From: Bradyrhizobium sp. 149
Lineage (GTDB): Bacteria > Pseudomonadota > Alphaproteobacteria > Rhizobiales > Xanthobacteraceae
Length of the DNA: 64,000 nt
Direction: 5' to 3'
Assembly: GCF_023073915.1 (NCBI RefSeq)
Contig: NZ_JADPKK010000005.1
Coordinates: forward strand, 62,001-126,000
Made by a program: the position numbers and the translations under genes. The notes below the pieces were generated by a model. That model was not told the origin of the DNA and did not search any database. It saw only the letters and a program-made list of their open reading frames with translations. Of the stretch, positions 53,468 to 63,830 are shown in pieces; position 1 is the first letter of the stretch, and each line of letters starts with the position of its first letter.

Positions 53468-54787
53468 TCACACCACCAGCTCCACCTCCGGCGCCCCCAC
53501 ATGCGGCGGCACCGGCATCGGCACGGTCACATAATCCTTCGGCAAATTCACCGGCCGGTATCCCGGCTCGACCGCCATCCGCTTCAGGACGCTTTCGTGC
53601 ACATGCGCGCCGTCGGGAATGAGGCGCGGTTCGCAATCGGGGATGTAGAATCCCAGAAACACCTTCCGCTCCGGCCATTCCTTGTACTTGGCCGGCTTCG
53701 GCACATACTCCAGCACGCGCCAGAGCGCCGTCATGGAATTGTGCAGGATGCCCGTCTTGCCGGTGTAAGCGGGCTCCACGTATTGGAACGGTGAGTTCTT
53801 GCGTTGGACGCCCCAGGCCAGCTGGTTCACGGTGCGCGGGTTGAAGTTCAGCCCCGCCTTCGTCGCTTCCTCGATCATCCAGATCAGCGAATATTTGGAC
53901 TCGCCGCTCTCGGCCTCCGGATAGCCGCCGCCGACATCACTGTGCACGCCGGCGAACCACACCTGCAAAATGTCCTGCGGCTCCTTCTTCTCGTCGGGCA
54001 CGTAGCGGTTGCGCCAATAGTCCTGCGGCTCGTCATACTGCTTGAGGCGGAACATGCAGCGCTGCTCGTCGATCGCGATCGCCTGGCGAAAGATGTTGAC
54101 GCTCGGATTGCGCAGCGTGAAGGCGAGCTCCTCCAGGCTGAACACGAGGAAGAAGACGTCGCGCCGCGGCACGATCACGCTCGCCACCGTGTCCCAGACG
54201 CCGATGAAATGGATGGTCGGCCAGCGCGTCGAGGTGATGCGCGCGAACTGCGCGGCGAGGTCGAATTCGTCTTTCGGCAGCGGTCCCTGATCATCGACGT
54301 CGATATTCTTGAGGTCCTCGATGTCGTTGCCGCGCCCGGTGCCGGAATATTGCTTGTAGGCGACGAGGCCACTGCCTGCGAGGTTGGCCTGCTCCGGCGA
54401 GATCAGGCCGATCTTGTGGATCAGCCCCGCCAGCACCCGAACCGTGTAAGCACCGCGCGAAAAACCGAACAGATAGATCTTGTCGCTGGGCGCGTAGTGC
54501 TGGACCAGGAAGCAATAGGCCGCCAGCGTGTTGTCATCGAGCCCGTAGCCGGTGGCGAGCCCCAGCACCAGATTGACGTTGGCTTTCCAGCGCTGCCACG
54601 TCGACGGCTCCGTCACGGTGCCGACCCCGGGATCGTAGAACACCATCTGCCGCGGCGACGTCTTGCCGGTCTTGCGCAGGCAGCGATACAGCTTCAGGAC
54701 GTTGGAGATGTTCTCCGAGATCTCGTTGCCGGTGCCGTCACAGCAGATGACGAGATTTTTCGGCTCGGATTTGGGTTCGTGATCCAC
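53468..54787 (-). CDS. DUF2235 alpha/beta-hydrolase protein
   Basis: A 439-residue protein of the DUF2235 family, which includes type VI secretion Tle1-type phospholipases and housekeeping hydrolases. The family start LVICCDGTGNEISENISNVL and nucleophile elbow KIYLFGFSRGAYTVRVLAGLI (GxSxG) are clear. FIGVWDTVASVIVPRR and QVWFAGVHSDVGGGYPEAESG supply the Asp and His regions. No VgrG, PAAR or immunity gene adjoins it, so a secreted effector role is not supported. GTG at 54787 has a strong GGAGGG. Confidence 0.87.
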   Translation of the reverse strand: MDHEPKSEPKNLVICCDGTGNEISENISNVLKLYRCLRKTGKTSPRQMVFYDPGVGTVTEPSTWQRWKANVNLVLGLATGYGLDDNTLAAYCFLVQHYAPSDKIYLFGFSRGAYTVRVLAGLIHKIGLISPEQANLAGSGLVAYKQYSGTGRGNDIEDLKNIDVDDQGPLPKDEFDLAAQFARITSTRWPTIHFIGVWDTVASVIVPRRDVFFLVFSLEELAFTLRNPSVNIFRQAIAIDEQRCMFRLKQYDEPQDYWRNRYVPDEKKEPQDILQVWFAGVHSDVGGGYPEAESGESKYSLIWMIEEATKAGLNFNPRTVNQLAWGVQRKNSPFQYVEPAYTGKTGILHNSMTALWRVLEYVPKPAKYKEWPERKVFLGFYIPDCEPRLIPDGAHVHESVLKRMAVEPGYRPVNLPKDYVTVPMPVPPHVGAPEVELVV

Positions 54788-56611: not shown

Positions 56612-56836
56612 GGGGAGATCGACGCTGACGAACGCCATCCGCCAAGGCGACGTTCTGCCCGTTTTGGGTAAGCAGCGAAAGACCGACGAACTTCAGAGGT
56701 TCTTGCCGATCTCATCGGCGATACATCACGTCAGATAGTAAGCCTTGGACTTCAGTCTTGTGCTGGAGGTATGTCACTTCTCGACAATTTCACCGGTGTG
56801 AGTACACCCGGCTATCAATGTCATGACCTTAGTGAG

Positions 56837-58006
56837 CTAGCCATATGCGTCGCCCGTAAGCAACAGGGCTGAAATCTCCGGGCGCGACGCTAGCAAGGAG
56901 TCGATGCTGGCAACGTACCGTCTTGGCTCCGCATAAGGGATAGCCACGCTGGATACTCGATCTGCAGAGATCATCTTCATCTCAAAGCACGCCAGCGCGC
57001 TTCCGATGGTCATCAACTTGCTCGCCAAGGGCGTGACAACTAAGCGACAGCCTCCGACTATCTTTAGCGTGTTTCTGTACCGTTCCATAGCTCCAAGCAG
57101 TTGCCTATACATTTGAAAAGGATGGGCCTCGTTAGCATACATGATGTTAGACAAGGGCGTTTCGCGTCGTGCAAACAATATGCTGTCATACTCGACCAAT
57201 AGCATATCGCCTCTTCTTGGATTCTTCGATGGATAAGGCAATATCGGACATATTTCCGCGTCAGACGGGATGAGTTCTTCGATCTTGCGAACCTGAGCTA
57301 GGCGATTCTCACCAAGAATGGGTAACCACACCAGCGGTAGATCTCGCAAAGCTTCCGATTGCAACGCTTCGGAATACCCAGGGATCAAGACAAGGTCGTT
57401 GCTTGGATCTTCAGAACTTATAAGGCTGTCGAGCGCGGCGTCTTCGCCCACGAGCACTTGAAGCGAGGTGCCGTTCGCGGCTAGCTCGGATCCGTCCTTG
57501 CAGGTAGGCAATAATTTTGCAAGGAGGCTGAGTAGAACGGTGAGATATGCGATACGAGGTAGCGAGCTTACATCAAGGACAATATCTGTTTGGCTGTCCA
57601 CGAACCTGAGAACGTCGTCAGCTACTTGTCTCAAGCCAATCGTCGCGCTGACTTCATCTTCTCCCACGGAGGACCGACCGAAAGTTATCGAATGGCAGCT
57701 CCCGATTTCTGAGAAGCATTCTTCCAACTCGGACTTGTTTTTTCTAGTTTGGGCCTTCAATTCCTCGGACATCTGATAGCTCGAAAAGCCAATTAGAATA
57801 AGTTGAGCATTCTGAACTTCACATCCGGACTCGCGAATCCTTGCGACATACTTGGACATCACAATAGCTGCCCTGGCATCAAAGCCGGCGCCCGTAATAT
57901 AGAGTAGGTTGAACTTCTTGCTGCTCTTCTTTCGGTCCGCGAGGACCTGATCCCAAAGATCTTCCACTTCAGGTCCTCGCCTAAACACATAGTTCTTCCA
58001 GATCAT
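56837..58006 (-). CDS. Unrecognised protein of the island operon, Rossmann-like N-terminus
   Basis: A 389-residue protein I could not place in a family. The N-terminal segment KKFNLLYITGAGFDARAAIVMSKYV and VQNAQLILIGFSSYQ look like a Rossmann-type beta-alpha start with a glycine loop. A second conserved-looking stretch is TDIVLDVSSLPRIAYLTVLLSLLAKL. Later LRDLPLVWLPILGENRLAQV and NTLKIVGGCRLVVTPLASKLMTIGSALACF hint at further alpha/beta layers. It starts with ATG immediately after the TAA of the ATPase gene (TAAATG), so it is the fifth and last gene of the operon. Could be the effector or a nucleotide-binding partner; not shown. Confidence 0.75.
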   Translation of the reverse strand: MIWKNYVFRRGPEVEDLWDQVLADRKKSSKKFNLLYITGAGFDARAAIVMSKYVARIRESGCEVQNAQLILIGFSSYQMSEELKAQTRKNKSELEECFSEIGSCHSITFGRSSVGEDEVSATIGLRQVADDVLRFVDSQTDIVLDVSSLPRIAYLTVLLSLLAKLLPTCKDGSELAANGTSLQVLVGEDAALDSLISSEDPSNDLVLIPGYSEALQSEALRDLPLVWLPILGENRLAQVRKIEELIPSDAEICPILPYPSKNPRRGDMLLVEYDSILFARRETPLSNIMYANEAHPFQMYRQLLGAMERYRNTLKIVGGCRLVVTPLASKLMTIGSALACFEMKMISADRVSSVAIPYAEPRRYVASIDSLLASRPEISALLLTGDAYG

Positions 58007-59926
58007 TTAGGCGACCTCTAAGCCGAGACCACGTGAAGGCTGCAGGCCAAACTCCATCCATTCAACTAAGGCCTGAGCTGATGTGTCCTGCCAACCTCCA
58101 TACTGGAGCGGCAGGTCGTAGTGCGCACAGAGCGTTCTGTTTAGGTAGAAGACTGTGCCCCCTTCACGAGATGTGCTCGCGCTGCTCTCCCGCGGTACGA
58201 GAAGATTTTCGGCCACGCATTCAAACAAAACTTGGCGAAGGGTACCAAAAAGGAAATCTGAAGAATCTGGAGTTCGTTTGAGTCTGGAAATCTCGCTATT
58301 GGAGAGGCGAACGCCCGTGACGCCCGGCGCATAAGGGGCATTGATGGAATAAGTCTTCTCTCGGCAAAAGACGCCAACAGCGTCAAGGAGCCGTTGAGCT
58401 AAAGTGCCCTCGCTGTGGCTTTGTGGAATGAAATCTCTCTTCTTGCTCGCAGCATCCCGTAGCCTCTTTTCTTGCTCCCGGGGTTGCAATTGAGGCTGAG
58501 TTTGGCGTCGTAAAATTTGCTTCGCTTTCATGCCCTCATACAGCGCAGCCGCCAAGTTGAGAAGCTCCTCAGGATTGTTCGTTGCCATGGCGCAGAGTCG
58601 GTCTATGCCATAATAGTAGGGAAGCTTGACTTCTCGGTGAACGAATATTTCGGCGGCGGATTGCACTGACGAGCTGTCGCGCTCGTCTAATTCATCTTCT
58701 GATAAGGGAACCAATTCGAAGGAAAGTTGCTTATTCGCTTCGTCCCGTGCCACTAAAATCCGCGTAATGTAAAGATCCGTCAAAGCTTGTGGGTTGATGG
58801 AGCTTGGTCGTTGCGAAGCTCTTGCCAGCCACTCCCTATAGCGGAGGTTGTCACGCAAGCGACTCATGTTCGACTCGAAAATCGCTTTGGCTTGAGCGTA
58901 AGCCTCTTCAATTTCCGACGAATTAAGGTTGTCCGATAGATACTGAGCAAATGAGCCGGCGGGTACAGTCGTTTGCTGGGCGAATCTTCGATCAAGAATG
59001 TTTTGTGCGAAGATCGCGAACTGTTGGCCACTTCGTCCTCCCCAAAGTTCTTCCAGGGGATAGTCGCGTATATCACGACCTTCGCGCGCGCCTTGGGAAA
59101 GAAACGAATCGATGAATGCTATGCTCCTGCTCGCAACCCAGATCGGAATGGACGGTCTGATGTTTACTAGTTCATCCAACAAGAGTGTGCGTTGGCTCTT
59201 GCGGAGCTTCTGTGTGTCGTCGATCATTAATAAGCGCTTTGGCGCAATTGTTCTTCCATTATGGATGAACTTAACTGCCTGGAGCCACAAGACGGCTTCA
59301 AAGCGAACCTGGGACGGGGTTCTGATGTTGGGCGACGAAATTATCGAATCTAGCAAGCTGTAGATCTCGCGCTCGCGCTGCTCCGCCCAAGCGATCATCT
59401 CAAGCGCAGTATCATGGAGTGGAATTGAACTAAGTTCGTTCGCGGGGGGCTGATATTCGAGGCGGATGTCCTGCAGGACGTCGCTGGCTACGCCCTCGAT
59501 GAGATCAGGTAAGCTACGGAGAGTTCTCAAAACAATGCGGGTGTCGAGCAGCGCTCGAAACATGCCTTCTTTGACAGAGGAGACGCCGGGCGGAATATCT
59601 GCATAACCTGCGGCGCAGGAGAGATAGACACCAAGCAGTTGAGGGCCTCTTTCTTCATCTAGGACTCCCCACTCAATCAGTTGGCGATAGGACTCGGCTT
59701 GCGTGGGACGTGCATGCCAAAAGGCTCGCAGCGCGTTTGGAGTGAATGCTCTTAGAATCGTAGTCTTCCCGCCCCCCGGTGGACTTCTGAAAACGTGGAC
59801 GGCGCCCTCTAGACAATCCTCCTCAAGCTTCTCGAGGACTTTGGGGGAAAAAAGATGCACGAATTCCTGATCCGAGGTCGTCCGCTCGGACATCCGCTCT
59901 AGAAAGGGGTTTGCGCGATATGCCAT
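58007..59926 (-). CDS. P-loop (ORC/CDC6- or STAND-like) ATPase of the island operon
   Basis: A 639-residue ATPase with Walker A SPPGGGKTT at residues 48-56 and Walker B KRLLMIDDTQ near 240. Sensor-like segment IPIWVASRSIAF follows. The N-terminus NPFLERMSERTTSDQEFVHLFSP resembles AAA proteins of ORC-CDC6/STAND type. A long helical C-terminal half (about 330-600) may bind a partner. Its ATG overlaps the preceding stop by one base (TAATG), indicating coupling to the PRTase-like gene. It may be the switch of the system. Confidence 0.85.
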   Translation of the reverse strand: MAYRANPFLERMSERTTSDQEFVHLFSPKVLEKLEEDCLEGAVHVFRSPPGGGKTTILRAFTPNALRAFWHARPTQAESYRQLIEWGVLDEERGPQLLGVYLSCAAGYADIPPGVSSVKEGMFRALLDTRIVLRTLRSLPDLIEGVASDVLQDIRLEYQPPANELSSIPLHDTALEMIAWAEQREREIYSLLDSIISSPNIRTPSQVRFEAVLWLQAVKFIHNGRTIAPKRLLMIDDTQKLRKSQRTLLLDELVNIRPSIPIWVASRSIAFIDSFLSQGAREGRDIRDYPLEELWGGRSGQQFAIFAQNILDRRFAQQTTVPAGSFAQYLSDNLNSSEIEEAYAQAKAIFESNMSRLRDNLRYREWLARASQRPSSINPQALTDLYITRILVARDEANKQLSFELVPLSEDELDERDSSSVQSAAEIFVHREVKLPYYYGIDRLCAMATNNPEELLNLAAALYEGMKAKQILRRQTQPQLQPREQEKRLRDAASKKRDFIPQSHSEGTLAQRLLDAVGVFCREKTYSINAPYAPGVTGVRLSNSEISRLKRTPDSSDFLFGTLRQVLFECVAENLLVPRESSASTSREGGTVFYLNRTLCAHYDLPLQYGGWQDTSAQALVEWMEFGLQPSRGLGLEVA

Positions 59927-61047
59927 TAGGTTTGCCGATGGCGGCTTACTCTGGGAAATAGTCCAAAGAATTGGTAGTCTTCTGGACCCCAGAGAGCATA
60001 GACCGAATTGTTTGGCGTATTGTGTGACAAGACAAGAGGAAGGGAGCAGTTAGCGAACCCGAGCCGCGCGCTCTCTGTCCCTCCGACTGAGATGTGCCGA
60101 TCCGACGCTCTGTCATCATAGTACTTCGGTTTCGAAAGCATGCTCATTAAAGCTGGGTCCGTTGACGGCGAAAGAGCGATACTCTTCTCAATAGGGCAAA
60201 GGACGTGAAGCTTTAGCGGCTTGAACCCTTGTTCGGACGTGAAACGTTCGGACCAATATTCGATATGATCAATTGCTTGGCGGGTCGCGACGTATAGTAG
60301 CAGATACACTTCGTAGTAGTCAGGATCTATCAGGTCGCCGCTATAAATACGTTCGTAGATTTTTTTGATTTTGCCCTTGAATCGTCTGTCTTTGGTGTCG
60401 AAGCGAATATAGGTATTACCGCTTCCGGAGAAGTCATCCACTAGCCAAATCAAACTGAAGCGCGGTGGGATGTAGTCGCTGGGATGAAGGACCGAGGATG
60501 ATTTTAGGGATACCTTTAGTTCCTCCAACATATCTTCGGCTTTGGCTTCCCCCAATTCGTATGCTTGCCAGATCTGTTCATTGCTAATCGCTCCGTTACT
60601 GGCACGACGCAGATCGTTGGTGTGCGCTCCGTCACTCAGACCGAGGTAGAGTGACTGTATGCGCAACTGCTCGAAACGTGGCAGGCTCATTAGCTGCCCA
60701 ACACGGTATGGTGGAATGCCACTCTCTTCGGCGATCAGCTTCAGGCGCTCCTGAACAATTACGTCGGGGTAGGCGAGTTGAACGAGATGCGCAATTTCTT
60801 GTTCGGATATGAACACTAACCGATCGCGAACAAATGAGAGTGCTTCGGCCCGATCCTCATGGTCGAATTGCTGAAGCCAAAGCGCGAGGCTTTCAACAAA
60901 CTGCTTTCCGGGACCAAATTGTTGATACTGATTGTATTTGTGGTCGGCGAGTAGTTGCAAGACAGGGACATTGCGTCCGACCTCTTCTGGGTCGCTCCAG
61001 CGCATGATCTGCGCTAGGAGAACTTGGGCGTTAACGTCTTTCAACAT
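59926..61047 (-). CDS. Phosphoribosyltransferase-like protein of the island operon
   Basis: A 373-residue protein with a PRPP-loop-like motif LVDDFSGSGNTYIR at about 202-215, acidic pair plus SGSGNT as in type I phosphoribosyltransferases. A long helical N-terminal region (1-190) precedes the catalytic fold. I recall a family name PRTase-CE for conflict-system PRTases of this look, but could not check. Start ATG at 61047 has GGAGA five bases upstream; the longer frame to 61065 overlaps the SIS-HAD gene more. Substrate unknown. Confidence 0.8.
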   Translation of the reverse strand: MLKDVNAQVLLAQIMRWSDPEEVGRNVPVLQLLADHKYNQYQQFGPGKQFVESLALWLQQFDHEDRAEALSFVRDRLVFISEQEIAHLVQLAYPDVIVQERLKLIAEESGIPPYRVGQLMSLPRFEQLRIQSLYLGLSDGAHTNDLRRASNGAISNEQIWQAYELGEAKAEDMLEELKVSLKSSSVLHPSDYIPPRFSLIWLVDDFSGSGNTYIRFDTKDRRFKGKIKKIYERIYSGDLIDPDYYEVYLLLYVATRQAIDHIEYWSERFTSEQGFKPLKLHVLCPIEKSIALSPSTDPALMSMLSKPKYYDDRASDRHISVGGTESARLGFANCSLPLVLSHNTPNNSVYALWGPEDYQFFGLFPRVSRHRQT

Positions 61048-62974
61048 CGTTCTCCAAAAAATCAAAACGAAACGTTTGGTCGTTGTTCAGTTTGAGTCGG
61101 TCAAGATACCAAAGTGTTGCGTCTAGATCGCGCTTATAGCGCGGCGCGAGTTTCCAACCTCGATCAATGCGCCTTGATGGCAGGTCCACACTCAGCGAGA
61201 AGCGGTGCTGTAGCAATGATGAGTCGTTGCCTGGCCAAGCTCCAAGGTCGCCCATTGTTACAACTTCGTACGGGTCCATCCGATGAGTTTGGACTATGTG
61301 CGCGACTATGTGAGATTTACTTACGCCTCGGGATAGGATGTCTACCGAGTGCTTGCTCTTCAATACTGTGCCAGATTCTAATCCCGCCTGCTTCAATGCA
61401 TCGGCAATAACGAACCACATATTGTCAGCGCTGACGCCGTTTTCGAAGCGAATGCTGAGTTGATGCGGCGCATTAGCTCTAATTCGCGATATAGGGACGC
61501 CTTGAGAGCGCAAATTGAGTACGATACGTTTGGCATGGATCAAGAACTCGCTCAGTTCTGTAACGCGCTGTATCTCATCCGATAAAGCTCCAATCCAGCC
61601 GCCGTTGTATAGAGCCAGCCGAAACATTGGCCACAGCCCTTTATCAACCGTGTCCCTCAGGTGATCGCGAACTGAGTCGCCTCGGCCGGATGCGATACCC
61701 ACAATCATACCCGCCTTAGTGATACGGTTCAGGTGTTGCAAAATTTCCGACCCCGGAGGGAGATCAACCTTGTTGGAGCTACAGAGCGTGCCATCATAAT
61801 CAAAAACGATTGCCCGGAAGTCCCTCGTAGAAAATTCCTGCTCAATCTCCTCCAATGCCCTCCGAATCTTGCCGCTGTTACGGGGCGAAGGCCAATGCGC
61901 GCCAAGGACCTCATATTTTGATTGCTCACCTCTAATTCCAGTTTCTTGCGGCGGCGGGATTAGCGATGATAGCTCGGCATAATAGAGCTGGCGGCCTAGG
62001 GGGGAAACGTTGGGCTTCGCAATGTTTCTCTTCGCCTCATTTGCTATTCTCGAAACTAAATGCATTCCCGCAACGAGACCCGCAATCAAATCGTTGGGAG
62101 TCGAACCGGGCATTGGAATCGTGAAGATGGGCACTGCGTCTGGGATTTGCGGTTTCATATCGAGCCACAGGGCTTCAGTGCTCGGTTCAGTTAGGACAAG
62201 CAGAGCACAGTCCCGCGTTCTCTCGGTCAACCAAAGGTGTCTGCCATGCGCGAAGGAACGGAAGTCGGCTAGCTGCGAAAATAGGAGCGCAGATTCGGAA
62301 AATTTTGATTCCAGATCTTCCGCGATTGGGCGAAGCTTGGGCGAAAATACGATGATGAGGCCGCGCTTATTTGCCGTCCTCGTAACAAACTCCTTGGCGG
62401 TATAAAGAAATTTGTCGAGAGGCTGGCCCGAGTAGTAAATGTTTTGTAGATCTAAAGAGGCAGGCTTTTGTCGATCCAATTCTGAAAAAGCGCGAGCAAC
62501 TAGCGATGCGTCCAGTATCAAGCTGTTGGTTGCTAAGTATCCATCCTTGTCACTTAGCTCAAAGACGTGTGACGTCACGTCGTTCAGCGTAGCCGCGAGT
62601 TCCATAAGGGGGCTGGAGTGTCGATTGGTAATGACGTGGACTGCTCGCGAACTGTGTTCGCGGGCTCGCTTCAATGCTTCTAGTATGTCGGGATTTTTGC
62701 CCTCTGCAGAGATAATGAAGATAGGGCTCGTTGCTGCCAAGGTCGGATTGCAAATCAATTCGAGCGGGGTAATCGAACGAGAAACTCGGCCAGTATAGGC
62801 TTCGTGTAAGCTGCATAGAAGTGAAGCGACCGTAAACGAGCCGCCCGAGCCGACCGCGATTAGACTAAACTGACTAGCTCCCGCGATAGCGGATTTGAGC
62901 TTTGTGAGTTCAGCTGATGCCGATCGATTAAGACTGGTCTGCAGTTTGGATAACTCTTCCTCGTAGGGCGTCAT
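61031..62974 (-). CDS. SIS-SIS-HAD fusion protein of the island operon
   Basis: A 647-residue fusion. The first SIS (sugar-phosphate isomerase-type) domain starts around 36 with LIAVGSGGSFTVASLL; a second SIS-like unit spans about 203-300 (LIIVFSPKLRPIAEDLESKF). From about 385 a HAD phosphatase follows with motif I VFDYDGTLC (Asp392/Asp394), motif II IASGRGDS (Ser429) and motif IV MGDLGAWPGNDSSLL (574-588). Cof-type cap features lie between. The tandem suggests handling of a phosphosugar and its dephosphorylation. Its 3' end overlaps the PRTase-like gene by 17 bases. Confidence 0.85.
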   Translation of the reverse strand: MTPYEEELSKLQTSLNRSASAELTKLKSAIAGASQFSLIAVGSGGSFTVASLLCSLHEAYTGRVSRSITPLELICNPTLAATSPIFIISAEGKNPDILEALKRAREHSSRAVHVITNRHSSPLMELAATLNDVTSHVFELSDKDGYLATNSLILDASLVARAFSELDRQKPASLDLQNIYYSGQPLDKFLYTAKEFVTRTANKRGLIIVFSPKLRPIAEDLESKFSESALLFSQLADFRSFAHGRHLWLTERTRDCALLVLTEPSTEALWLDMKPQIPDAVPIFTIPMPGSTPNDLIAGLVAGMHLVSRIANEAKRNIAKPNVSPLGRQLYYAELSSLIPPPQETGIRGEQSKYEVLGAHWPSPRNSGKIRRALEEIEQEFSTRDFRAIVFDYDGTLCSSNKVDLPPGSEILQHLNRITKAGMIVGIASGRGDSVRDHLRDTVDKGLWPMFRLALYNGGWIGALSDEIQRVTELSEFLIHAKRIVLNLRSQGVPISRIRANAPHQLSIRFENGVSADNMWFVIADALKQAGLESGTVLKSKHSVDILSRGVSKSHIVAHIVQTHRMDPYEVVTMGDLGAWPGNDSSLLQHRFSLSVDLPSRRIDRGWKLAPRYKRDLDATLWYLDRLKLNNDQTFRFDFLENDVERR

Positions 62975-62980
62975 GATGTT

Positions 62981-63580
62981 TCATTTTGTTTTGCGCTGTT
63001 GACCTGAACCCGGTTTATTCTCTCGCTTGCTACCCGTAGCTTTTGTTTTCTTCGCTCGAACCTTTGAGGGGCTGGCTTGTGCCGAGAGTTCGGCCCTTAA
63101 CTCCATCAGCATTAAGCCGAGCATATTTTGCCCCTGTCCGTTGACCTCGCCCCACAGCCGATTGACCGCGTTGTTTACACGCCCGGCCTCGACCAGCCGA
63201 GCAGATCCAGTCGAGAGGAGAACTGAGGCAAGGTTCGGATGTTGAAGGAATTTGGCCCGTAGAACTGCTCTCATTCGATCGAACTTAATCGACTGCCAAT
63301 CGGGCACGACATCCCAAATGTATAGGCCGTGGGCAGCCATCGCCGCCAACGCCGGTGTTGGTGCAGCTAGAATCCAATCGCGAACTGCCGGCTTCAGAGC
63401 CTTGCCTGCTTGATAAGCGTGTTCAGCGGTTGGGTATGTCTTCCCGTCGAATTCTATCTCGCAACGAAACAAGTTGCTGAAAATTCCGTAGGGACGTTCG
63501 TTCGCCCGATAGAACTTTATCGGCTCTTCGTTCGTAGTCGATGTGATCTTCGATTTCTTTCTGGAAGTCTGGCTTCGCAC
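62981..63580 (-). CDS. NADAR-domain protein, first gene of the island operon
   Basis: A 199-residue protein with a NADAR (YbiA/RibX-like) domain: FYRANERPYGIFSNLFRCEIEFDGKTYPTAEHAYQAGKAL. Conserved-looking residues include Gly32, Ser35-Asn36, Pro50-Thr51, Glu53-His54 and Gln57. Some NADAR proteins remove ADP-ribose from guanine, and others act on riboflavin intermediates. The C-terminal 35 residues are lysine/serine-rich (SKVRAKKTKATGSKRENKPG), suggesting nucleic-acid contact. The start is GTG at 63580 with only a weak SD. It ends 6 bases before the SIS-HAD gene. Confidence 0.87.
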   Translation of the reverse strand: MRSQTSRKKSKITSTTNEEPIKFYRANERPYGIFSNLFRCEIEFDGKTYPTAEHAYQAGKALKPAVRDWILAAPTPALAAMAAHGLYIWDVVPDWQSIKFDRMRAVLRAKFLQHPNLASVLLSTGSARLVEAGRVNNAVNRLWGEVNGQGQNMLGLMLMELRAELSAQASPSKVRAKKTKATGSKRENKPGSGQQRKTK

Positions 63581-63610
63581 TTCGAATCTCTACTCAGCTG
63601 TGAGTTTAGA

Positions 63611-63616
63611 ACTATA
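63611..63616 (-). promoter_or_regulatory. Possible -10 element of the island operon
   Basis: On the minus strand TATAGT lies about 31 bases before the NADAR GTG in an AT-richer stretch. No good -35 hexamer is seen at 17 bases, so the promoter assignment is weak. Confidence 0.25.
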
Positions 63617-63725
63617 CAGCAGCGAGTGAGGCGACGGAGGGCAAGCCTATGAGATACTCGTCGATGTTGTGGATACCGCAACAGCCATTTCTTGGGGGTA
63701 GTGCTGGCAGCTGAAGTGTAGCTGT

Positions 63726-63763
63726 CCAAAAACAAAAACGGCCGGATCTTCCGATCCGGCCGT
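63726..63763 (-). terminator. Intrinsic terminator of rpmB
   Basis: Perfect 11-bp stem (63738-63748 and 63753-63763, ACGGCCGGATC arms) with a four-base loop. On the minus strand it is followed by TTTTTGTTTTT, a classical U-tract. It lies 68 bases after the rpmB stop and forms the right boundary of the AT-rich island. Confidence 0.9.
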
Positions 63764-63830
63764 CTCGCAACACTCTCTCCGGCTAAAGCCTACGCCTCGC
63801 GACGCAAGCCCTCGCCCAATTCGAAAATTC

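Follow-up and report, generated by a model that had tools for sequence, protein, structure and literature searches.

We found that five adjacent minus-strand genes in a 64,000-nucleotide stretch of Bradyrhizobium sp. 149 DNA (contig NZ_JADPKK010000005.1, positions 62,001 to 126,000; hereafter the window) are one conserved unit, and that this unit is very probably a defence system, likely against phage. In transcription order, the genes encode a NADAR protein, a tandem-SIS protein fused to a HAD phosphatase (SIS-HAD), a phosphoribosyltransferase-like protein (PRTase), an ORC-type ATPase and a triple-CARF protein. Such a compact and widespread operon (of five or six genes, depending on the clade) ties a CARF protein to sugar-phosphate enzymes and a PRTase, with no cyclase in the window, and this makes the question of the CARF ligand directly testable. 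The genes and their parts, in window coordinates, are as follows.

62981..63580, minus strand: gene 1, NADAR N-glycosidase / ADP-ribosyl hydrolase family; 199 aa, GTG start; PF08719, 88.7 bits
61031..62974, minus strand: gene 2, tandem-SIS phosphosugar isomerase/deaminase fold fused to a HAD-IIB phosphatase; 647 aa
61952..62974, minus strand: tandem SIS part of gene 2, residues 1-341 (aligned fold range), with Glu227 and His243
61055..61819, minus strand: HAD-IIB part of gene 2, residues ~386-640 (Pfam and NCBIfam profiles), with D392/D394, S429, K553 and D576/D584
59926..61065, minus strand: gene 3, PRTase-CE phosphoribosyltransferase-like predicted effector; 379 aa as listed; PF24390, 66.4 bits
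58007..59926, minus strand: gene 4, ORC-CDC6-like AAA+ ATPase; 639 aa; PF24389, 103.5 bits
56837..58006, minus strand: gene 5, triple-CARF (CARF6) predicted nucleotide sensor; 389 aa; PADLOC CARF6

A conserved gene set and its families

A scan of genome contigs yielded 43 loci, and profiles built from the five window proteins show the window order in 28 of them, far beyond chance. Nine of the remaining 15 come from kinase-bearing clades whose order or gene set differs (L035-L042, L044), five (L022, L026, L027, L029, L043) are truncated at contig ends, and one (L033) looks decayed. A set of 55 loci was kept for further comparison, with 22 repeat loci dropped and the near-copies L018/L025 and L020/L021 retained. 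The PRTase, the ATPase and the CARF protein are all present in 47 of these 55, and in every one of the 47 they are adjacent, in that order and on one strand. L033 (Pelomonas aquatica), which has a short SIS-HAD and PRTase, a full-length NADAR and no ATPase or CARF match, was left out of these triads because of its apparent decay. An earlier sequence-only reading of this DNA took the genes to be one operon and held that its proposal would fail if homologues had no conserved neighbourhood; the neighbourhood was found to be conserved, both in the window order and in the triad, and the proposal is not refuted on this point.

The same reading was accurate about the layout. The list of open reading frames (ORFs) confirms five minus-strand ORFs at the coordinates above and their tight spacing (in transcription order, a 6-base gap, a 35-base overlap, a 1-base overlap and no gap), the 35-base overlap being that of the PRTase as listed from a TTG codon; homologues start at an internal Met. 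The block is indeed richer in AT than its flanks (GC fraction 0.50-0.56 versus 0.61-0.71 around it). A promoter scan returned fewer sites than in shuffled sequence.

Around the triad, the SIS-HAD protein is present in every clade, and the kinase and the NADAR are each optional. In the distant clades, SIS-HAD, PRTase, ATPase and CARF are found together with a PfkB kinase (PF00294), which carries the motif D[TS].G[AS]GD in 20 of 20 cases; the sequence-only reading had missed both this kinase and the loose linkage of the NADAR described below. Among the 55 loci, the NADAR is found in 42, the kinase in 20 and both in 9, and the two loci with neither (L026 and L027) are both cut by contig ends, so that every kept locus uncut by a contig end has one, the other or both. 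A kinase without a NADAR occurs in 11 of the 55, 4 of which end close to the set and 7 of which extend more than 2 kb on both sides. Three further gene orders were seen (SIS-HAD, PRTase, ATPase, CARF, kinase; SIS-HAD, kinase, PRTase, ATPase, CARF; and PRTase, ATPase, CARF, SIS-HAD, kinase), and in 9 loci the NADAR lies on the opposite strand, adjoining the kinase. On the S. meliloti plasmid pRRI128_5, two PRTase-ATPase-CARF triads flank one SIS-HAD-kinase-NADAR set; this arrangement divides the system into a triad and an arm of small-molecule enzymes. In the second triad of this plasmid, the PRTase (L122:12889-13976) lies in two overlapping frames, of 315 and 73 aa, and this triad may be damaged.

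The core proteins have also diverged together. Pairwise identities among SIS-HAD, PRTase, ATPase and CARF correlate at 0.955-0.990, and those with the kinase at 0.897-0.989, whereas all correlations from 500 shuffles per core or kinase pair were below 0.44.

The NADAR, SIS-HAD, PRTase-like and ATPase identities proposed from the letters alone are borne out by Pfam and, for the SIS part, by fold. The NADAR protein clears the PF08719 cut-off of 35.1 bits and also passes the riboflavin-intermediate N-glycosidase model TIGR02464 (76.7 versus a cut-off of 73.7); its residues E53, K60 and E131, kept in 42 of 42 aligned sequences, would by their spacing correspond to E43, K50 and E125 of a solved NADAR, and would make it YbiA-type. 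In Pfam the SIS part is subthreshold (14.1 versus 25 bits), yet its fold (residues 1-341) is clear and lies near NagB-II, GlmS and FrlB, with E227 and H243 (both kept in 50/50) aligning with the E..HG of NagB-II and 2aml. The SIS-HAD protein scores 40.2 bits with Hydrolase_3, above the curated cut-off, and several phosphosugar phosphatases are among the nearest models and chains of the HAD part. HAD residues D392, D394, K553, D576 and D584 are kept in 50/50; a motif II pattern without Thr matches 39/50, and the aligned column (position 429) is S or T in all 50. PRTase and ATPase cover their profiles almost fully, against a gathering threshold of 27 bits in each case. The PRTase has a phosphoribosyl pyrophosphate loop, keeps D210, D211, S215 and G216 in 50/50 and matches PADLOC PRTase_III-A at 8e-15; the ATPases carry a relaxed P-loop, PG.GK[TS], in 47/48 and the strict G....GK[TS] in 13/48, the window protein having SPPGGGKT. 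None of the PADLOC models matches the SIS-HAD protein or the ATPase of the window.

The fifth gene, which the sequence-only reading had left as an unrecognised Rossmann-like protein, proved to be a triple-CARF protein, with a full-length match to PADLOC CARF6 (PDLC01910, CARF_CARF_CARF; 346 bits, E 5e-104). In the VIA-align rows, on which we rested the fold call in preference to the Foldseek order, its model is nearest to Csm6, Can2 and Csa3, and its best fold matches are CARF and SAVED chains, several of them solved with cyclic nucleotides. We found no fused effector domain on the CARF protein, and profile searches of the PRTase and the CARF protein against PDB chains gave nothing useful; the closest CARF relative, at 97% identity, is from Bradyrhizobium sp. 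76. We regard gene 5 as a predicted nucleotide sensor. In every clade, a CPILPxPSxNPRRGD stretch ranks with the best-conserved regions of this protein (57191-57253, minus strand; residues 252-272), in which P254 and P257 are kept in 48/48 and R264 and D267 in 47/48. It matches no CARF motif known to us and may be a ligand site or a partner contact.

An insertion hotspot among defence genes

Homology of the flanks to five relatives stops on one side of the operon and resumes on the other, and so delimits a slot.

56615..63730, no strand: insertion slot (hotspot) holding the operon; borders 56614-56621 and 63724-63730
63735..63766, minus strand: 14-pair terminator-like hairpin at the right slot border, from a terminator scan that is weak alone (10 sites versus 7.9 expected)

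Insertion beside the terminator may define the hotspot site. A left-flank match was found in 21 relatives, and the slot contents were read for five of these, where the inserts span 1.6-4.7 kb: LmuABC with a DUF4917 protein (Lamassu) in G418, an LmuB remnant in G402, a Hachiman-like pair of a HamB-like helicase and an unmatched partner in G408, an AAA_15 ATPase, again beside an unmatched partner, in G406, and an unmatched 423-aa ORF in G405. The flanks of carriers are rich in matches to defence models. The PADLOC models matched at 1e-10 number 98 for 89 flank proteins of a first batch and 142 for 104 of the 168 listed in a second, versus 16 for 99 control proteins drawn from other stretches of the contigs that hold 10 of the 13 first-batch loci; these are counts of models and not of proteins (one protein can match many). 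The 25 flank matches listed for each batch include components of Gabija, Hachiman, AbiE, PD-T7-1, type I restriction, DRT and Mokosh.

The distribution of the system is patchy. A SIS-HAD search turned up 5 carriers among 398 genomes from the phylum and 10 among 195 from the genus (own genome included), and a CARF search of the same-sized draw returned the same five genomes of 398. It is carried on 16 of 72,556 plasmid records, 7 of them predicted to be conjugative, and all five of the 16 plasmid neighbourhoods that were inspected hold the system; the plasmid SIS-HAD proteins are annotated as HAD hydrolase (7), hypothetical (5) or sucrose-6-phosphate hydrolase (4). Three viral contigs also carry it, and 50,697 phage records gave no match. 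Carriers include Pseudomonadota, Trichlorobacter, Acidobacteriaceae, a Chloroflexota, two Planctomycetes, an archaeal Thermoplasmata bin and a Paenarthrobacter; many carriers are metagenome bins, which makes their host names uncertain. Given a hotspot with other defence inserts, defence-rich flanks, patchy distribution and carriage on plasmids, the conflict role that had been suggested for these genes is well supported.

About 2 kb beyond the slot lies a protein with a Tle1-like phospholipase domain of type VI secretion (53468-54787, minus strand; PF09994, 274 bits), and a short piece resembling Tle1-like sequence was seen by eye inside the G402 slot (L106:4561-4830).

Candidate mechanism and competing explanations

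PRTases act as effectors in retron III-A (excerpts of PMC12548924), and a PRTase beside DprA belongs to a system active against T7 and lambda (excerpts of PMC9122126). In Chp, according to the excerpts of PMC12715507, a HAD phosphatase is gated by CARF and the CARF-HAD protein depletes ATP and IMP. NADARs, according to those of PMC11543638, act on N-glycosidic bonds of ADP-ribose or of riboflavin intermediates; they strip ADP-ribose off guanine and are partners of DarT1. Because PRTases serve as effectors elsewhere, a HAD is under CARF control in Chp and NADARs cleave N-glycosidic bonds, we tentatively propose, at odds that we put slightly short of even, a division of labour in which the CARF protein is the sensor, the ORC ATPase the switch and the PRTase the effector, while SIS-HAD, kinase and NADAR handle a sugar-phosphate or ribosyl compound.

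In this scheme, a nucleotide-like ligand would be recognised by the triple-CARF protein, and the ATPase would, under CARF control, turn on the PRTase-CE, which is predicted to attack nucleotides. The triad would be the sensing and killing unit, since its members are inseparable (47/47) and since two triads surround a single arm on the Sinorhizobium plasmid. As there is neither a Cas10 nor a CD-NTase among the five genes of the window locus, we propose that SIS-HAD, with the PfkB kinase where present, may isomerise, phosphorylate or dephosphorylate a sugar phosphate, and so make or clear the triad's ligand or product. The NADAR would hydrolyse an N-glycosidic (ribosyl or ADP-ribosyl) adduct, as an eraser or an antidote; since clades can apparently swap it, what it fits is probably a common chemistry and not a particular partner protein. 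The most likely outcome would be nucleotide loss or damage, and abortive infection.

One specific form of this scheme, to which we would give roughly one chance in four, is a CARF immunity free of any cyclase: SIS-HAD (joined in other clades by a ribokinase-like kinase) produces a messenger, either a phosphosugar or a ribosyl nucleotide; CARF reads it, the ORC ATPase and the PRTase attack, and an interchangeable NADAR removes either the signal or the damage. If true, this would add a chemically new class to the immune messengers. Profile searches of the own genome gave no SMODS and no Cmr2 match, and a sole PF22335 match below cut-off, from a model that also matches in E. coli; over these three profiles, a cyclase-made ligand in the own genome is unlikely. 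Likewise, Cmr2 was above cut-off in none of 12 carrier genomes, and the PF22335 matches above cut-off in 3 of the 12 (at ~31 bits or less) are read as GGDEF-like because of their low scores and because E. coli matches as well.

Several observations weigh against the proposed scheme, or against parts of it. The CARF ligands known to us are all made by cyclases, so that a sugar-derived ligand is a guess, and a SMODS cyclase is present in 2 of the 12 carriers, in one of which (G528:C38) it lies on the system's own contig, ~8.5 kb away. When Foldseek itself ranks matches to the CARF model, KaiC and NKCC1 come first, at template modelling scores of ~0.2. It is equally conceivable that SIS-HAD, kinase and NADAR serve as effectors or in repair; Chp remained toxic when conserved residues of its HAD were substituted (excerpts of PMC12715507), so that the HAD activity need not be a weapon there. 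The NADAR, finally, hardly co-diverges with the core: its correlations with the core four are 0.21-0.30 (shuffle maxima 0.20-0.26, with 3 of 4 pairs exceeding theirs). With this and its riboflavin-model score, the NADAR may be an optional passenger.

The simplest reading of the weak co-divergence is that the NADAR has probably been exchanged between systems, the alternative being a floor on identity set by constraint. NADARs are at least 49% identical throughout, whereas the core minima are 17-29%; NADARs of different clades are as alike (0.61-0.65) as those of the window clade are among themselves (0.62), whereas SIS-HAD drops from 0.62 to 0.25-0.29. The drawn branches of the NADAR tree mix the clades, with 4 changes although 2 would suffice, but no more than one change per group is required by its well-supported branches, and its labels are clustered relative to shuffles for the window clade and clade B, less so for clade D. 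With the kinase, the NADAR correlates at 0.87 (n = 9, shuffle maximum 0.61). That one NADAR subfamily stands beside systems so diverged points to a shared substrate, which would be a handle for finding the chemistry of the system.

A fairly unlikely alternative to the proposed scheme is that all the enzymes form a catabolic chain: the PRTase-CE, which Nicastro and colleagues reportedly predicted in 2023 to be a nucleotide-degrading effector, would split nucleotides at the glycosidic bond, kinase, SIS and HAD would dead-end the freed ribose phosphate, and the NADAR would strip N-glycosides, so that pools collapse irreversibly. The nearest NCBIfam models of the PfkB kinases fit such a chain (ribose-1-phosphate kinase in 12/12 and ribokinase in 8/12, below the cut-offs shown), as does the depletion of ATP and IMP by the CARF-HAD protein of Chp. 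A killing enzyme, however, needs no processing of its sugar product, and it is SIS-HAD that no clade lacks, kinase and NADAR each being optional; the phosphosugar phosphatases near the HAD part also speak against it.

It is unlikely, in our judgement, that the PRTase instead writes a mark that the NADAR erases, in the manner of DarT1-NADAR. Here, the PRTase would put phosphoribosyl or ADP-ribosyl groups on nucleobases or nucleic acid, the NADAR would remove the adduct, and SIS-HAD (FrlB/NagB-like) with the kinase would clear rearranged ketosamine adducts. The removal of ADP-ribose from guanine by NADARs, the invariant catalytic E/K/E and the nearness of the SIS fold to NagB-II, GlmS and FrlB would all suit such a pair, and the fructoselysine 6-kinase model is matched by 6 of the 12 kinases, at E 5e-6 or weaker; fructoselysine breakdown also pairs a PfkB kinase with an SIS protein. 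Yet none of the five genes is an ADP-ribosyltransferase, the NADAR would, if our residue mapping holds, have the Glu of the YbiA type in place of the DarT1-type Asp, and, as the 11 loci with a kinase and no NADAR attest, the eraser is not always beside the set.

Still less probable is that the set is an accessory of cyclic-oligonucleotide immunity, in which a Cas10 or CD-NTase encoded at another place in the genome makes the messengers, CARF reads them and controls the PRTase, and the sugar enzymes play a peripheral part. The CARF and SAVED fold matches and the two SMODS-bearing carriers favour it; the SMODS, Cmr2 and PF22335 searches of the own genome do not, and it leaves no role for SIS-HAD, the constant partner. 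An accessory of type III CRISPR in particular was rejected on the Cmr2 and PF22335 profiles, neither of which gave a Cas10-like match above cut-off in the own genome. A metabolic island for sugar metabolism, riboflavin damage control or cofactor salvage is very improbable, for although NADAR, SIS, HAD and PfkB are all metabolic folds and the NADAR passes the riboflavin N-glycosidase cut-off, a CARF-ATPase-PRTase core has no place in such a pathway, and the hotspot, the defence-rich setting and the patchy, plasmid-borne distribution led us to reject it.

Relation to described systems

Three of the families here (PRTase-CE, ORC-CDC6-like and CARF6) already bear names, and to call the system undescribed, as the sequence-only reading did, is too strong. 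The window PRTase and ATPase belong, far above cut-offs, to the same two families (PF24390, PF24389) as the PRTase-CE / ORC-CDC6-like conflict systems. The first of these names is said to come from Nicastro et al. (2023, NAR, gkad879), the likeliest prior description, which may already cover the CARF, SIS-HAD, PfkB and NADAR partners. The CARF6 family, whose full-length profile and CARF/SAVED fold gene 5 shares, presumably stems from Makarova et al. (2020, NAR, gkaa635); PADLOC files this sensor alone. The whole set, with SIS-HAD, PfkB and NADAR, was recognised in no paper of the literature searched, which excluded these two likeliest sources.

Membership in DarTG1 or retron III-A was rejected because in each case the required partner gene is absent among the five. 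Retron type III-A has a PRTase of the same family, but the window set lacks a reverse transcriptase. DarTG1 likewise places a NADAR beside a predicted nucleotide-attacking transferase; its DarT, however, has the ADP-ribosyltransferase fold, whereas none of the five proteins matches that family, the NADAR appears YbiA-type and a PRTase stands in the transferase's place. CBASS and type III CRISPR signalling would call for a CD-NTase or a Cas10, and neither is among the five genes. The window set differs from the DprA-PRTase defence in having no DprA; in contrast to both this defence and retron III-A, gating here would fall to the ORC ATPase and CARF. In Chp, CARF and HAD also work together, but there (excerpts of PMC12715507) they are fused, with transmembrane helices and Cas10 signalling, whereas here they are separate genes, the HAD is fused to SIS and no CRISPR gene is among the five. 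Two NADAR-related candidates were also set aside, namely the DS-32 NADAR anti-phage protein (NF053876; 59.2 versus a cut-off of 240 bits) and the PADLOC candidate PDC-M42, for which the five genes gave just a weak M42C match (22.7 bits), on the NADAR.

SIS isomerase, PfkB kinase and HAD phosphatase act together in the ADP-heptose pathway (GmhA-HldE-GmhB), as do SIS deglycase and PfkB kinase in fructoselysine breakdown (FrlB-FrlD). We treat these pathways as a working likeness only, for the kinase matches are weak (1.7e-6 at best for rfaE, 5e-6 at best for fructoselysine 6-kinase) and the setting here is one of defence.

A few minor features of the relatives were also seen. L049 (G026:C144) has one in-frame TAA inside its SIS-HAD match, most of which is covered by a 640-aa open frame. 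The PfkB kinases (L037:14830-15903 and relatives) have a zinc-finger-like CPxC in 15 of 20 cases, all but L048, L062, L067, L068 and L069. In three kinase-bearing loci a small helix-turn-helix regulator adjoins the NADAR, annotated as such at L122:12424-12771 and recognised by eye at L038:17586-17927 and L039:17310-17669.

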